From Oribacterium sp. (GTDB lineage: Bacteria > Bacillota_A > Clostridia > Lachnospirales > Lachnospiraceae), in the NCBI GenBank assembly GCA_017940955.1, contig JAGAXP010000126.1:1-7631 (forward strand): a DNA stretch of 7,631 nt, in the 5' to 3' direction. The position numbers were made by a program, and so were the translations under genes. The notes beneath the pieces are model-generated. The model worked only from the letters and a program-made list of their open reading frames with translations, did no database searches and had not been told where the DNA came from. Shown here piece after piece: positions 3,531 to 7,601 of this stretch; position 1 is the stretch's first letter; each line of letters starts with the position of its first letter.

Positions 3531-3543
3531 AACAAAAAAATTC

Positions 3544-3567
3544 GAGCCGGTGCTTATGCACCGGCTC
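3544..3567. terminator. Bidirectional intrinsic terminator between convergent genes
   Basis: A perfect 10-bp stem, GAGCCGGTGC/GCACCGGCTC, surrounds a TTAT loop, 13 bases after the uxaC stop and 17 bases beyond the stop of the minus-strand gene ending at 3585. Read on the minus strand it is followed closely by a run of seven T; on the plus strand only ATTTTA follows. It is therefore a canonical terminator for the minus-strand operon and a somewhat weaker one for uxaC. Confidence 0.92.
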
Positions 3568-3584
3568 ATTTTACATCATATCAA

Positions 3585-3917
3585 TTATTTAACCTGGTTC
3601 CACCATACAGGATAAACCATTCCTTGTGTCATGCCTGTAGACTCAAGAACCTTTAACAGTTCAATATACTCTGCATCAGACATGCACTGATATGTATTGC
3701 AAGAAGGACATACCCAGGTTTTATCACCATACTCGCCGTTTGCGTTTACAACGTTCATAGGCGTTCCGCACTGAGGACAGGTTGCTTCGTTAGCTCCGCC
3801 TACACCGCCGGTAACCTTAGCCATCTCTTCATCAGAAATTGCGGTGTTCTTTGCCTTGATCTTCTCCACTTCTCCGCGATGCTTCTTGATAAACTCGGTA
3901 AACTTGTTGTCTTCCAT
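3585..3917 (-). CDS. Double-glycine-leader protein with zinc-ribbon core
   Basis: A 110-aa protein of unknown function. Residues 1-38 look like a bacteriocin-type leader: a charged N-terminal helix ending in ISDEEMAKVTGG (27-38). This fits the LSxxELxxIxGG pattern cleaved by C39 peptidase-containing ABC transporters, with hydrophobic residues at -12, -7 and -4, Ser at -11 and Glu at -8. After the GG comes a short GGAN linker, then two CxxC pairs (C47/C50 and C70/C73, each CPxC) typical of a small zinc ribbon. An acidic/hydrophobic helix follows, then an aromatic tail containing YPVWW. The start has AAAGGAG (minus strand of 3924-3930) at six bases. It is the last gene of the minus-strand operon, 47 bp after the lipoprotein gene and just before the terminator. 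The core is unlike a classical bacteriocin. It could be a secreted folded protein, a RiPP-like precursor, or a cytoplasmic protein whose leader resemblance is accidental. No exporter is present nearby. Confidence 0.82.
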   Translation of the reverse strand: MEDNKFTEFIKKHRGEVEKIKAKNTAISDEEMAKVTGGVGGANEATCPQCGTPMNVVNANGEYGDKTWVCPSCNTYQCMSDAEYIELLKVLESTGMTQGMVYPVWWNQVK

Positions 3918-3964
3918 AAAGTACTCCTTTCATGAACTGTACATCTATGATTATTTGGTTTTTA

Positions 3965-5146
3965 TTACTTCGATACCCTGACGGTGCTTATGAGCACCCC
4001 GTCGTAGTAAACATTAGCCTCCCCATCAGGTGCAAGATCCTTTGTGTCCACAAGAGTGAATGAGTGGGAGGTCTGAGTATCGCTCTTTACGGTTACGACA
4101 CCATCATCATCCATGAGGCAAGGATAAACCAGCTGACCGCTCTTGGTCTCGATCATGAACTTAGTAGGATCAAAATCCTTTGGCTCACCGGTTTCATTAT
4201 AGAGGTAAAGACAGAACCAATACATCCTTTCTCCGGTAGCACCATCTCCATACTTGATCTTTACTTCACGGCACTGAACCTCATCCTTTGTAATGAAGTG
4301 ACCGTCTTCTAAAGAATTTACGTCTTCAGAGGACTCCTTCTTATCAAGAGTGAGCTTTGTGTTGGCAACCTTTTCATCGATCATTGCCTGTACCATCTTC
4401 TGGTACTCTTCTGACATAAGGAATGAATAGTCAGCAGCGTCACCCTGGGACAGGGCTTCCGCAGGTTCTTCCTCAGGTGTTGTGGTGATGCTGTTGATGA
4501 TGGTCTTTGTAAGCTCCTCAGCTTCATCACCATCCTGCCAGAAGGAAAGCTCTCCGAAATCATTGCCTGCTACGAAAATATAGTTTGCAACAACAAACTC
4601 TCCTTCCTCACCTTCATAGCTTTCCTTTGAGTAATATAGTCCAAGCTCCGTATCATTTATGGTTACTTCAGTAATGCCGTCAGCATTGTACTGCTTTGCT
4701 TCTGTTTCTGTATATGCGTAAAGGTCTCTACCTTCATGCGGATACTGATAAACATCAAAATCCATCAGGAATTCGTCGCTCTTGTAGTAGGCTATCATGT
4801 CATCCTTCCGCTCATGATCCTTTACATCACCCTGATAGTAGCTATTCGGAACCTTTATGAAATACCCGGTGGTTCCGATCTCAATGTAGCCGGCATCCTT
4901 AAAGGATTCCTGAAGGTCAGATGCTTTATCATCCTTTTCGGCTGAGGATGTCTCTTCTACGGCAGCCTCTGTGGTTTCGGCTAATGTTTCTGCCTTGGGT
5001 GCTTCAGTGGTCTCTTGAGCTGTGGTTTCCGCAACTGTCCCTTCCGGTTTTGATCCGGCGGTGTTGTTCTTCGCTTCTCCACAGCCGGACATAAGTGCTG
5101 CAGAGCAGGCTGCTGTCATAAGTATATATAATGCTTTATTGTTCAT
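3965..5146 (-). CDS. Lipoprotein of unknown function with acidic linker and two-part extracellular region
   Basis: A 393-aa predicted membrane-anchored lipoprotein. A signal peptide ends in the lipobox-like MSGC with Cys22 as the lipidated residue (Met at -3 is slightly unusual). It is followed by a low-complexity T/E/A-rich linker (about 25-75) that would hold the folded parts away from the membrane. Residues about 78-220 form a first domain rich in Tyr and acidic residues, containing GYFIKVPNSYY and a YIFVAGNDFGELSFW segment. Residues about 235-393 hold a second, beta-rich domain ending in VYYDGVLISTVRVSK, reminiscent of the Ig-like domains of DUF4352/DUF5067-type lipoproteins. That resemblance is loose. 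The gene begins 19 bp after the DUF3592 gene, with GGGAG seven bases before the ATG, so it is co-transcribed with it. In context it may be an envelope partner or immunity-type companion of the double-glycine proteins, which is inference. Confidence 0.85.
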   Translation of the reverse strand: MNNKALYILMTAACSAALMSGCGEAKNNTAGSKPEGTVAETTAQETTEAPKAETLAETTEAAVEETSSAEKDDKASDLQESFKDAGYIEIGTTGYFIKVPNSYYQGDVKDHERKDDMIAYYKSDEFLMDFDVYQYPHEGRDLYAYTETEAKQYNADGITEVTINDTELGLYYSKESYEGEEGEFVVANYIFVAGNDFGELSFWQDGDEAEELTKTIINSITTTPEEEPAEALSQGDAADYSFLMSEEYQKMVQAMIDEKVANTKLTLDKKESSEDVNSLEDGHFITKDEVQCREVKIKYGDGATGERMYWFCLYLYNETGEPKDFDPTKFMIETKSGQLVYPCLMDDDGVVTVKSDTQTSHSFTLVDTKDLAPDGEANVYYDGVLISTVRVSK

Positions 5147-5165
5147 GCCGTATCTCCCAAATCTA

Positions 5166-5699
5166 TCATTCTTTCTTTTTGAAGAACTCCATAAGCGCGA
5201 GGCCTATGGCTCCACCTACTGCTATCACCGTTACAAGGGAAATCACAAAAGTTATGATTCCGATTACAATAACTGCTATTCCTATCCATCTGAATATCGT
5301 AAGGAAGGTTCCGTCTGAGCTGGAGATATCTTCTGAATACAGCTCCACAGGATCGTTGGGATCCACATAAATAGTGTATTGGTTTCCCACCTTGAAGGTA
5401 TCCTTAAAGGTACTGCTATAGGTGCTTGCATTGGATGAATAGGTCTTTCCGTTATAGTCATATTCAAATACCGGAGTTACTGAGGATGAGTTGGAGCTGT
5501 CACCTTCTGAGCTTTCAGATCTTGCATAACCTGTTACGGTTGCCTCTACCCGGGCTGTACACCGTTCCTTTAAAGCTGCATTTTGTTTTGTTATAAGGGA
5601 TGAAGCAAAGATAAATGCTATTCCGACGATCACCATGATGATGGATCCAAACAGCCCTCCCAAGGGACCGCCGCTACTATGGGTTCTGCTAACTCTCAT
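5166..5699 (-). CDS. DUF3592-type membrane protein
   Basis: A 177-aa protein with an N-terminal membrane segment (about 18-37), an extracytoplasmic domain (about 40-125), and a C-terminal hydrophobic stretch (about 138-172) ending in a KKKE tail. The middle domain shows the DUF3592 pattern: a variable Ser-rich loop (61-73), then PVFEYDYNGKTYSSN (76-90), then VGNQYTIYVDPNDPVELY (104-121), close to the family's YxxDPxxPE hallmark. The family's function is unknown. The ATG is preceded by GGAGG at seven bases. It lies 35 bp after the double-glycine/SH3-like gene and 19 bp before the lipoprotein gene, so it is the second gene of this operon. Confidence 0.85.
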   Translation of the reverse strand: MRVSRTHSSGGPLGGLFGSIIMVIVGIAFIFASSLITKQNAALKERCTARVEATVTGYARSESSEGDSSNSSSVTPVFEYDYNGKTYSSNASTYSSTFKDTFKVGNQYTIYVDPNDPVELYSEDISSSDGTFLTIFRWIGIAVIVIGIITFVISLVTVIAVGGAIGLALMEFFKKKE

Positions 5700-5734
5700 G
5701 ACATATCCTCCCTGATATTTTTTAGCCGGACTTG

Positions 5735-6007
5735 TCAGGACAGCAGTCCGAGATGACCATCTTGAACGTAGGTTTCTATTCTGCCATCCGGGAATCTGAC
5801 AGTATAATACGCTCCGTCTTTATTGTACGGGCTGCGGGTCAATTCCAGAATTACAACAAATGATTGCTTGTCACTGTACCAGCATTTCTGCCCTACACGG
5901 AATCTGTGGGGTTGGCTCCACCGATCGTCTCCTCCCGTAGCCTGTTCCATAATCTCGTCATTGAGTTCTGCGTTTATGTTCATATCCTTATCCATCTTCT
6001 CTGACAT
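5735..6007 (-). CDS. Double-glycine-leader protein with SH3-like core
   Basis: A 90-aa protein of unknown function. Residues 1-26 are Met/Asp/Lys-rich and end in LNDEIMEQATGG (15-26), a fair match to the double-glycine leader pattern (Leu at -12, Met at -7, Ala at -4, then GG). The remaining 64 residues (27-90) look like one small beta-barrel: HRFRVGQKCWYSD (34-46), a strand VVILEL (51-56), then YYTVRFPDGRIETYV (67-81). That pattern recalls SH3/Tudor-like domains, but I cannot name a family. Apart from its leader it is unrelated to the zinc-ribbon protein at the other end of the operon. The ATG has AAGGAGG at eight bases (minus strand of 6016-6022). It is the first gene after the tandem LytTR-like sites at 6123-6155 and so the likely direct target of the neighbouring regulator. 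Confidence 0.8.
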   Translation of the reverse strand: MSEKMDKDMNINAELNDEIMEQATGGDDRWSQPHRFRVGQKCWYSDKQSFVVILELTRSPYNKDGAYYTVRFPDGRIETYVQDGHLGLLS

Positions 6008-6086
6008 TTTGGTTTCCTCCTTATGAATTAGTTCTTCGATATATGGAATCTTTTATTGATTCCCGGTTATGTTTTCTGATGATCTT

Positions 6087-6104
6087 AATCTATCATCATT
6101 AATA
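6087..6104 (-). promoter_or_regulatory. Candidate -10 region of the double-glycine operon
   Basis: Reading the minus strand away from the LytTR sites, TATTAA (6104-6099) begins 18 bases past the end of the second repeat and TAGATT (6092-6087) lies 12 bases further. Either could be a weak -10. No -35 consensus is visible, as expected for a promoter that needs an activator bound in the -35 region. Which one is used cannot be decided from sequence. Confidence 0.35.
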
Positions 6105-6122
6105 CTTACTCACAATAATTCG

Positions 6123-6155
6123 TGTCTATTCGGTTGTTTTTGATGTCTATTCGGT
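6123..6155 (-). promoter_or_regulatory. Tandem LytTR-type operator upstream of the double-glycine operon
   Basis: Two perfect copies of ACCGAATAGACA (minus-strand reading; 6155-6144 and 6134-6123) repeat with a period of 21 bases, two helical turns. Written as ACCGAATAG-N12-ACCGAATAG, the layout and sequence closely resemble the direct-repeat sites I recall for streptococcal HdrR/BrsR-type LytTR regulators (ACCGTTTAG-N12-ACCGTTTAG, from memory). They lie 17 bases past the DUF3021 stop codon and about 116 bases before the start of the 90-aa gene, next to a receiver-less LytTR gene. Confidence 0.8.
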
Positions 6156-6172
6156 AATGGGAACGATCATGA

Positions 6173-6604
6173 CTATGCCGTTTTTCGAGAATTGAATTTT
6201 ATGAGTTCAAGCTGGCTGTTTATCCTTGCGATCTCTTTCTTCCAGAGATAGTATTCCGTAAGCCATATGGCAAGATATGCTACTGAAAAAGCTAAAAGTA
6301 TCAGGAGGAGTATTTCATGGGGAAACCATCCCAGGATTTCGCTTGTGATAAACATTGCGGCAAAAGTAACTATGTAATGGGTCAAGGTAGATCTTCCGAG
6401 GCTCCAGGATTCAAAGTCATATACTATGGCGCCTCTGTTAGCTATAACACCATATAAGCCGGACCCAAACAGCTGCATCAAAAGATATCCTTTATTAAGC
6501 GGTTCGTTTTCGCTTGTAAAGACTACATAGGTGATGGCACCGATCGATATTCCGATGGAGAATCCTACCAAGGCACGTATGATAAACTTAGTTTTGATGT
6601 TCAT
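6173..6604 (-). CDS. DUF3021-family four-TM membrane protein, partner of LytTR regulator
   Basis: A 143-aa integral membrane protein with four predicted membrane segments, starting with FIIRALVGFSIGISIGAITY. The others are around GYLLMQLFGSGLYGVIA, LTHYIVTFAAMFITSEIL and ILLLILLAFSVAYLAIWL, followed by a charged cytoplasmic tail (KKEIARINSQLELIK). Size, topology and the RGA..YDFESWSLGRSTLTHY region fit DUF3021, a family usually encoded next to stand-alone LytTR regulators. By analogy with the HdrM/BrsM membrane inhibitors of streptococci, it may hold its LytTR partner inactive until a signal arrives; that role is inference. The ATG at 6604 is chosen because AGAGGAGG lies six bases upstream (minus strand of 6611-6618); an upstream in-frame ATG at 6628 has no comparable site. 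It follows the LytTR gene by 121 bp. Confidence 0.85.
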   Translation of the reverse strand: MNIKTKFIIRALVGFSIGISIGAITYVVFTSENEPLNKGYLLMQLFGSGLYGVIANRGAIVYDFESWSLGRSTLTHYIVTFAAMFITSEILGWFPHEILLLILLAFSVAYLAIWLTEYYLWKKEIARINSQLELIKFNSRKTA

Positions 6605-6725
6605 GACATACCTCCTCTGTATACGCATGTTTTCACACTTTCACACACCTGACACGCAGATGCAGATCGGCACAGCTCTTAAATAAACTTATTTTAGTCA
6701 TCCATGACTGATATGAAGCTTCTTC

Positions 6726-7196
6726 CTAATCAGCTGCCTTTGAAAGAACAGCTTTGATTTCCTTTACTCTTCTTCTTGAAACGTAGGTTTTTTCTCCGTT
6801 TTCAAGCTCTACGCCTATGGTTCCGGTGGAGGAAAAATCAAAATTTTTCACTCTTTTAATATTCAGGATCTCTGACTGAGAAATACGTATAAAGCTTTCC
6901 TGATCCAGCACTTCCTCAAGGTCTCTGAGATTTTTCCTGACCTCGTATAATCTTTCAGAGGTCTGGATCATGATCTTCCTGTTTACGATATATACCCTGA
7001 AGATCTGTCTTTGGGGCAGCATAACAACGCTGCCCTTAAAATATGCCTGTATCATGGGTTGCTTTTTATCGGCATATGTCTGGATAGCGTTTATTACACC
7101 TTCAACATCATCATTCTTCTCACGGTTCTTTATGATGACGGTGAGTTTTTCGATTGCTTCGTCTATGATCAGTTTGATAACGGGTAAGTCGGACAT
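6726..7196 (-). CDS. LytTR-domain DNA-binding transcriptional regulator (no receiver domain)
   Basis: A 156-aa regulator. The N-terminal part (about 1-60) is a short helical and linker region with no phosphoacceptor receiver domain. The C-terminal part (about 62-152) is a LytTR DNA-binding domain, recognised from IFRVYIVNRKIMIQT, the YEVRKNLRDLEEVL helix, FIRISQSEILNIKRVK and the ending GEKTYVSRRRVKEIKAVL. Such stand-alone LytTR proteins bind pairs of direct repeats spaced by two helical turns and are commonly controlled by a co-encoded membrane protein rather than a histidine kinase. Here the partner would be the DUF3021 protein and the target the repeats at 6123-6155. The start has AAGGA eight bases upstream, overlapping the TGA stop of the preceding small gene, so the two genes are translationally close (12-bp gap). 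Confidence 0.92.
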   Translation of the reverse strand: MSDLPVIKLIIDEAIEKLTVIIKNREKNDDVEGVINAIQTYADKKQPMIQAYFKGSVVMLPQRQIFRVYIVNRKIMIQTSERLYEVRKNLRDLEEVLDQESFIRISQSEILNIKRVKNFDFSSTGTIGVELENGEKTYVSRRRVKEIKAVLSKAAD

Positions 7197-7208
7197 TGCT
7201 CAGTTCCT

Positions 7209-7421
7209 TCAATTGCTGTCAGTATCAGTATTGTCATTATTCTTAGTATTGCTGCTTTCACCTTTATAAAACATTGACACAATGGTCATGGCTATTCCGC
7301 CTGCAAAAACTGCAAGCCAGGCATGCTGGTAGGTCCCGGCAATGGTTCTCCATGCAATCATTACAAAAACGGATATCATAGCGATTGCTGCAATGATTTT
7401 TGATTTTTTCTTGTCTTTCAT
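7209..7421 (-). CDS. Small two-TM membrane protein, first gene of the LytTR block
   Basis: A 70-aa protein with a lysine-rich N-terminus (MKDKKKSK), two membrane segments (IIAAIAMISVFVMIAWRTIA and HAWLAVFAGGIAMTIVSMFY) and a hydrophilic Ser/Asn/Asp-rich C-terminal tail. No family is recognised. The ATG at 7421 is preferred because GAGGTGA, a strong anti-16S match, lies directly upstream with about six bases of spacing. An alternative GTG at 7430 is itself part of that ribosome binding site. Its 12-bp distance to the LytTR gene implies co-transcription, so it may be a third component of the regulatory unit. Confidence 0.75.
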   Translation of the reverse strand: MKDKKKSKIIAAIAMISVFVMIAWRTIAGTYQHAWLAVFAGGIAMTIVSMFYKGESSNTKNNDNTDTDSN

Positions 7422-7576
7422 AAGTTTCACCTCATCAATAAAAGTAGGTTTTTCATTGGAAATCTTCGAAATACAGAGTCTTATACATAAGTGTTAATGA
7501 TCTCCTGACATGACACTCAGCTGATTTGCTTCTATGTCATAAATCTGCTTTGTTTGTTGTCACTAAAACTTATGCT

Positions 7577-7601
7577 ATTGGGTGACGTGCCGTCACCCAA
7601 T
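7577..7601. terminator. Perfect hairpin near the right edge, probable terminator
   Basis: ATTGGGTGACG and CGTCACCCAAT form a perfect 11-bp stem around a three-base TGC loop. Neither side has a good T-run (GTAGATTTATAGG on plus, AGCATAAGTTTTAG on minus), so it is either a weak or bidirectional terminator for a gene beyond the edge, or a protein-binding palindrome. The rest of 7422-7631 holds the promoter region of the LytTR block, where only a poor TATAAG -10 (minus strand of 7480-7485) is visible. Confidence 0.5.

Follow-up and report, generated by a model that had tools for sequence, protein, structure and literature searches.

The window, a 7,631-nucleotide stretch of DNA from an Oribacterium species, raises the question of what a LytTR-type regulator and a DUF3021 membrane protein control in a cluster with two small proteins that carry double-glycine (GG) leaders. 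Judged by sequence, the locus is probably, and with good confidence, a LytTR/DUF3021 switch set over an exporter of the PCAT (peptidase-containing ATP-binding cassette transporter)/NHLM type and over modular mini-proteins with cores of about 66 residues. Comparison with relatives supports the gene content, the leaders, the operator and, in those relatives, the linkage to an exporter. The closest comparison is Oribacterium sp. KHPX15, of which the window is a close relative and whose matching locus is referred to as L001: gene order is syntenic, one flank being formed by uxaC and the genes for a LacI-type regulator and a PfkB kinase, and identity reaches 98% for the zinc-ribbon protein (109 residues) and 98.9% for glucuronate isomerase (uxaC). 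The seven co-oriented minus-strand genes named in a preliminary description of this DNA are all present as open reading frames (ORFs) on that strand.

The double-glycine leaders of the same description are borne out. The first cargo protein, SH3-like (5735..6007, minus strand), consists of a 26-residue leader (6007-5930) ending AELNDEIMEQATGG and a 64-residue core, and the second, a zinc-ribbon protein (3585..3917, minus strand), of a 38-residue leader (3917-3804) ending TAISDEEMAKVTGG and a 72-residue core. On a 14-residue matrix built from 41 leaders, none from the window and one of them the near-identical zinc-ribbon leader of KHPX15, they score 37.8 and 37.5 bits, and the next best site in six frames scores 5.5. 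Both conform to the C39 type, having I or L at -12, M at -7, A or V at -4 and the final GG. At -12/-8/-7/-4 the zinc-ribbon leader has I, E, M and V and the SH3-like leader L, I, M and A, the latter without the Glu -8 of the consensus I/L/V -12, E -8, L -7, V -4, GG, as given in the leader descriptions of PMC12184118 and, similarly, PMC6363468. In relatives the same kind of leader sits on several different small cores: a motif scan of the loci yielded 56 distinct GG proteins with zinc-ribbon, SH3-like and other cores. Given these different cores behind one leader, the exporter would serve a changeable cargo set. All 62 non-zinc leaders compared have GG and D at -10, although the motif used to select them already calls for GG and for an acidic or similar residue around that position; 58 have L at -12, 52 have M at -7 and 50 have A at -4. 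Neither the window's own cargo proteins (searched at E up to 1) nor two KHPX15 GG proteins (at E up to 0.01) matched the NHLP and Nif11 leader families TIGR03793 and TIGR03798. Genome G274, of the same family but without the zinc-ribbon cargo, carries at L055 and L066-L070 several proteins with Nif11-like leaders (judged by eye) that end in GG; the small cores behind them differ from each other and have the CxxC/CxxC pattern, so that zinc-ribbon-like GG cargo is found here too.

The regulator that would act on these genes (6726..7196, minus strand) is a DNA-binding LytTR protein of 156 residues, matching PF04397 at 6.1e-21 over residues 57-151; it has no Response_reg match in the Pfam search and is thus without a receiver domain. 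Its neighbour, with 121 bp between the two genes, is the DUF3021 membrane protein (6173..6604, minus strand; PF11457, 6.5e-24; start chosen from the ribosome-binding site and homologues), which by analogy with the systems of PMC6193735 is the probable inhibitor of the LytTR protein. The tandem LytTR-like operator claimed for this locus is confirmed at a single window site, ACCGAATAGACATCAAAAACAACCGAATAGACA (6123..6155, minus strand), in which 9-bp direct repeats stand 12 bp apart (ACCGAATAG-N12-ACCGAATAG). It scores 51.3 bits on a matrix trained on 25 sites from relatives and without the window, and the maximum over 50 shuffles of 67 kb was 12.8 bits. A promoter-like -35 TTGTGA and -10 TAGATT, 17 bp apart, begins 10 bp after the second repeat (6087..6115, minus strand); it was not among the calls of a stricter generic promoter scan. 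The operator divides the genes into two probable transcription units, in agreement with the regulatory and target blocks described before. Between the operator-linked promoter and the first cargo gene there is also a GGAATC-N7-GATTCC hairpin (6045-6063); similar inverted repeats follow two KHPX15 operators (L001 7806 and 5653), and a conserved 5' leader feature is possible.

The distribution of this operator extends beyond the window. In KHPX15 it precedes the exporter genes (L001 319), a run of two GG genes followed by the small transmembrane (TM), LytTR and DUF3021 genes (5653), the DUF3592-lipoprotein pair (7806) and the zinc-ribbon gene (9829), and further operators lie before two distant GG loci (L122 and L123). 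The exact operator pattern occurs in 18 of the 22 genomes that carry the zinc-ribbon gene versus 5 of 396 other genomes of the family (6/397 counting KHPX15), and a reversed control pattern in 1/22 and 3/397. Of 44 listed operator places, 39 unique sites were readable with downstream DNA, and 31 of these 39 lie upstream of a gene of the system within 1.4 kb. A script had counted 32; L083 was dropped as an ABC (ATP-binding cassette) cross-match to another kind of transporter. The genes that follow, with one site allowed to count repeatedly, are DUF3021 (13), LytTR (12), receiver proteins (10), GG cargo (8), and C39-ABC, histidine phosphotransfer (HPt) and TM genes (4 each). One common operator over cargo, exporter and switch genes suggests the outline of a regulon. 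The operator also precedes large secreted proteins at L078, L081, L084, L104 and L106, in L081 and L084 directly after the zinc-ribbon gene.

The exporter itself is found upstream in the same KHPX15 locus, where the order is HlyD-like, C39-ABC, second ABC, two GG genes, TM, LytTR, DUF3021, DUF3592, lipoprotein and zinc-ribbon. The C39-ABC protein (L001 1240-3420) scores 896.1 bits on TIGR03796, over the cut-off of 853.3, and aligns with PCAT1 (4ry2) over residues 19-718 at 346.9 bits; the second ABC protein (ABC2, L001 3426-5609) reaches 703 bits on TIGR03797 (cut-off 709.4), and the HlyD-like protein, of 160 residues (L001 761-1243), 24.8 bits on TIGR03794 (cut-off 156.2) over the first 52 profile positions only. 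The two GG genes after the exporter lie at L001 5858 and 6136. A co-varying C39 exporter had been named beforehand as a check, and such an exporter does co-vary with the cargo: TIGR03797 scores at least 600 bits in 21/22 zinc-ribbon genomes versus 37/396 others. The corresponding Fisher test, with KHPX15 out of the background, gives p 5e-19, a value that overstates the association given that the genomes are mutually related, and since 2 candidates per genome were scored in the background versus 32 in the zinc-ribbon genomes, the background may be underestimated. Raising the threshold to the curated 709.4 bits gives 16/22 and 16/397, and a C39 domain is found in 20/22 zinc-ribbon genomes. A profile of the GG-SH3 proteins matches 4/397 family genomes (G001, G063, G101 and G329), the G101 match and one of the four G001 matches being to the leader only, and all four are among the 38/397 (including KHPX15) with the exporter; the chance of this overlap is 7e-5, and with KHPX15 left out it is 3/3 (p 8e-4).

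Conservation of the neighbourhood, the other check proposed at the outset, also speaks for the description. The LytTR, DUF3021, TM and exporter genes and the operator recur near the zinc-ribbon gene, although the seven families do not travel as one unit. Over 22 zinc-ribbon loci, many of which end at contig ends, there are LytTR in 10, DUF3021 in 9, TM in 13, an NHLM exporter gene in 8, the operator in 17 and the lipoprotein in 4. In the eight loci with 10 kb on both sides, LytTR and DUF3021 are found in 7/8, the operator in 7/8 and an exporter gene in 5/8.

What the exporter would carry is best seen from the cores. The zinc-ribbon family has 29 homologues with an invariant GG, a second GG, EATCPxCG and a second CxxC; in the CxxC...CxxC pattern Cys47, Cys50 and Cys70 are present in 30/30 rows and Cys73 in at least 90%. 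The SH3-like protein has one close homologue (93% identical) by single-sequence search, and its family profile gathers 38, some matching by leader only. Its core is predicted to be an SH3/Tudor-like barrel, from a model whose confidence is low to middling (mean pLDDT 62.1). Two groups of the non-zinc cores could be aligned, of which the first was modelled, and further subtypes were told apart by eye. Core length is 58-84 residues except for two short entries (30 and 35), with a median of 66 over 68 cores. Among solved structures, YdhK of B. subtilis (E 2.9e-4) and the alpha subunit of thiocyanate hydrolase (E 0.044) weakly resemble the SH3-like cores in sequence, as judged with the profile of that GG family (A4). 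The two GG proteins match no Pfam family over its cut-off, LytTR, DUF3021 and DUF3592 being the families named over cut-off in the window, and none of the seven proteins has an NCBIfam match over cut-off.

In structure and sequence the cores most resemble zinc ribbons and Tudor/KOW-like barrels from intracellular proteins, and it could be argued from this that the GG proteins are intracellular, the GG being fortuitous in a conserved N-terminus and the cores binding nucleic acid or ribosomes. The persistence of cargo in Oribacterium P6A1 without a full C39 gene would fit such a role. Nevertheless, it is very improbable on two grounds: first, cores of different kinds share one leader, whose residue spacing is that given for C39 substrates; second, the cargo genes are linked to the exporter and co-occur with it.

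A second possibility is that the cargo consists of bacteriocins of class II type or of toxins, with the TM, DUF3592 or lipoprotein product as immunity protein and LytTR controlling killing as in streptococci. A class II bacteriocin core is cationic, amphiphilic and short, unlike the window cores with their charges of +1 and -4. The 68 non-zinc cores are mostly acidic and hydrophilic (median charge -5; grand average of hydropathicity (GRAVY) -0.435; 3/68 at +2 or more), which argues against ordinary bacteriocins. No window or tested KHPX15 cargo protein matches a bacteriocin family over cut-off. Below cut-off (given in brackets) the zinc-ribbon protein matches BLP_Lacticasei at 16.6 bits (40), Mersacidin at 13.9 (27.6) and TIGR04149 at 13.7 (25), and the BLP match spans leader residues 21-38 only. 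The GxxxG motif, common in two-peptide bacteriocins, is found in 28/68 non-zinc and 33/42 zinc-ribbon cores, a possible point for such a product. The zinc-ribbon gene is under strong purifying selection, with a ratio of nonsynonymous to synonymous change (dN/dS) against KHPX15 of 0.046, and conservation of this strength is unlike bacteriocins. It is in favour of a killing role that each genome holds several GG paralogues, that a small TM gene lies near the cargo in the 13 loci counted above, and that in Streptococcus mutans, in the systems treated in PMC6193735, bacteriocin genes go with GG leaders, a C39 exporter and control by a LytTR regulatory system (LRS). Taken together, such a role is unlikely, and a bacteriocin-type product is not supported, given the mostly acidic and hydrophilic cores and the absence of any bacteriocin family over cut-off.

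Comparison with KHPX15 further indicates how the cargo may be exchanged. Six of the seven genes have a counterpart at the same place there, and the dN/dS values of the other five (TM 0.196, LytTR 0.070, DUF3021 0.114, DUF3592 0.156, lipoprotein 0.134) are, like that of the zinc-ribbon gene, those of genes under purifying selection. The seventh, the SH3-like GG gene, has no KHPX15 counterpart between operator and DUF3592: in KHPX15 DUF3592 follows directly after its operator and the SH3-like GG genes sit elsewhere, whereas in the window the cargo gene lies between the two. Its presence here and absence at the KHPX15 site is the pattern expected of an exchangeable cargo gene.

Downstream of the LytTR and DUF3021 genes, several relatives carry genes for a receiver protein, an HPt protein, hybrid histidine kinases (a dCache sensor domain is present in one) and a DUF3798 protein, joined in some by a STAS protein or a SpoIIE-type phosphatase; ten proteins of these wider loci were searched and the others were assigned by likeness. 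None of these was seen in the ORF lists of the KHPX15 stretch, so the switch would exist in simple and phosphorelay-rich forms. A recurrent cluster of LytTR, DUF3021, receiver, HPt and large sensor kinases, in some cases with DUF3798, also occurs at L126, L131, L139, L140, L142 and L143 and is possibly an LRS joined to a phosphorelay. These genes, together with the operator that precedes several of them, raise the possibility that the cargo is a protein pheromone sensed by the linked phosphorelay and feeding back on the LytTR switch. This is quite unlikely, given that no kinase gene was seen in the KHPX15 stretch and that many different cores per genome poorly match one receptor; furthermore, known GG pheromones are far smaller than these cores.

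We infer gating, cleavage, export, folding after export and function from the sequence comparison, as follows. The window would be the 3' part of a LytTR-regulated secretion locus in which DUF3021 holds the LytTR protein inactive at the membrane. Once freed by a signal, LytTR would bind the two repeats just upstream of the -35 and activate the cargo unit of SH3-like protein, DUF3592, lipoprotein and zinc-ribbon protein; in relatives its targets may extend to the exporter genes, to cargo genes at a distance and to the operon that encodes it. Each cargo protein would start as a precursor bearing the shared type of double-glycine leader; after cleavage behind the GG by the C39 peptidase of the NHLM/PCAT-type exporter, the small protein, of 64 or 72 residues in the case of the window, would leave through the ABC channel.

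Several findings weigh against this proposal of a switched exporter with mini-protein cargo, in addition to the relatedness of the genomes, the sparsely scored background and the weak SH3 model described above. No exporter gene was seen in the window, and that of its own genome is one that we infer from KHPX15. Genome G012 has cargo and operator and no exporter match above 600 bits and no C39 match. In P6A1 (G007) only a C-terminal remnant of the C39-ABC gene (L125 14227-14496) is left, next to a second ABC gene of full length, and no C39 domain was found in the genome, though cargo, switch and operator persist. G335 and G379 have the operator before LytTR/DUF3021 and no exporter match above 600 bits, so that switch and exporter would be separable. 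Regarding the operator, its matrix was trained on sites from zinc-ribbon genomes, so matches in the loci of those genomes are not independent; no operator of at least 10 bits lies in the 210 bp upstream of the TM-LytTR block of the window; and 5/22 loci are without an operator of 25 bits, among them L020, which has a variant repeat. Eight of the 39 operator sites have no system gene downstream, four of them standing before a large secreted protein (by a crude signal-peptide pattern), one before a kinase, one before another ABC transporter and two before nothing recognised. Lastly, DUF3592 and the lipoprotein are not widely conserved.

The companion genes and flanks complete the locus. The small TM protein (7209..7421, minus strand), first gene of the regulatory block, has about 70 residues and two hydrophobic segments from an ATG start, a listed GTG start at 7430 lying three codons upstream; the gene is conserved near the cargo or LytTR gene in relatives. 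In the operator-led unit are the DUF3592 membrane protein (5166..5699, minus strand; PF12158, 1.2e-9) and a probable lipoprotein of 393 residues (3965..5146, minus strand; lipobox judged by eye), presumably an envelope companion. A probable terminator in the gap between the zinc-ribbon gene and uxaC (3543..3568, minus strand) has an 11-bp stem with 8 GC pairs and a T tract and is terminator-like on the plus strand too; terminator-like sites in the region are no more frequent than in shuffles. Upstream of the TM gene is a perfect hairpin, ATTGGGTGACG-TGC-CGTCACCCAAT (7577..7601; 81-nt fold z -3.95), and similarity to KHPX15 stops before it, at 7491. On the far side, upstream of the LacI-type gene, two 66-bp direct repeats (718-783 and 816-881), 97% identical and with an internal palindrome GGAGTTTGCATAAGGCAAACTCC, have at least one similar copy in KHPX15 (L001 13296-13362).

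Each part of the locus is of a known kind; what looks new is the cargo families, the leader they have in common and the single type of operator before cargo, exporter and switch genes alike. Among the open-licence PubMed Central papers listed in searches for the combination, with 20 of 39 shown in one case, none describes it by title or abstract, and the text of a Hungate1000 bacteriocin survey contains no occurrence of Oribacterium, NHLP, Nif11 or LytTR. The locus looks like a little-known way to secrete exchangeable mini-proteins. It is conceivable, and we would not go so far as to call it probable, that a single leader and a LytTR-switched NHLM/PCAT exporter give Lachnospiraceae, often of rumen origin, a general route for secreting a polymorphic set of exchangeable folded mini-proteins, among them SH3/Tudor-like barrels, zinc ribbons and other small cores. 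These would be surface or matrix proteins and not bacteriocins, with cores swapped behind a fixed leader and operator. If so, C39/NHLM exporters, usually read as machinery for bacteriocins or ribosomally synthesized and post-translationally modified peptides (RiPPs), would in addition let rumen and related Lachnospiraceae release small folded proteins in a regulated manner, and genome mining that files such loci as bacteriocins would mislead. With the regulon outlined by its conserved operator, work on KHPX15 or other cultured isolates could address the targets, the signal and the function of the cargo.

Comparison with known systems places the locus between several of them. The LRS of S. mutans (HdrRM and BrsRM), as presented in PMC6193735, have repeats of 9 bp, with a spacing of 12 bp in most cases and a distance of 10 bp to the -35 in many, and share with the window the receiver-less LytTR protein, the DUF3021 partner, whose inhibitor role is carried over by analogy, and the layout of the repeats relative to the -35. 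They differ in that the tabled repeats are mostly of type ACCNCTTAN and the window repeat is ACCGAATAG, and in that the targets here would be exporter and mini-protein genes, with a phosphorelay added in relatives. An LRS further has a DUF3021 or DUF2154 membrane protein that inhibits the regulator, positive feedback, and repeats 11-13 bp apart just ahead of the -35 of its own operon; the window operator has this layout in front of the cargo unit, and in KHPX15 the operator at L001 5653 precedes the run that contains LytTR and DUF3021. In the same paper, an operon figure includes Pseudobutyrivibrio ruminis and Butyrivibrio fibrisolvens and shows ABC transporters in the gene neighbourhoods. With the NHLM/NHLP cluster TIGR03794/03796/03797, in the outline given by PMC2887384, KHPX15 shares a C39-ABC protein over cut-off, a second ABC protein, an HlyD-like protein and adjoining GG cargo; it differs in that its HlyD-like protein has only 160 residues, the tested cargo is without an NHLP or Nif11 leader match, and no lanthionine- or thiazole-modifying enzyme was recognised in the KHPX15 stretch, part of whose ORFs were searched. 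A KamA-type radical SAM protein (TIGR00238, 248.8 bits, cut-off 199.2) lies 8.4 kb past the KHPX15 zinc-ribbon gene, beyond sugar and transport genes. CtA, the PCAT1 substrate of Clostridium thermocellum, has a 24-residue leader and a 66-residue cargo according to the substrate description in PMC6959990, the latter equal to the median core here, and the C39-ABC proteins are homologous along their length; CtA is described there as unstructured inside the channel, and the cargo likeness is one of size and leader. MAM of Faecalibacterium duncaniae, as characterised in the corresponding sections of PMC12184118, is likewise a GG-leader protein thought to reach the envelope via a neighbouring PCAT. 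It is one very abundant protein (mature residues 23-135) with a proposed lattice, whereas here there are several small and different cores and a LytTR-type operator. EbfG1-4 of Synechococcus elongatus, in the account of PteB in PMC4997328, are several small GG proteins with a biofilm role whose secretion needs the C39-type peptidase transporter; phylum and regulation are different. Our guess is that the cargo acts at the cell surface or in the matrix, killing being less likely, and such a role is favoured because the non-zinc cores are mostly acidic and hydrophilic, the zinc-ribbon protein is conserved and EbfG1-4 and MAM provide precedents.

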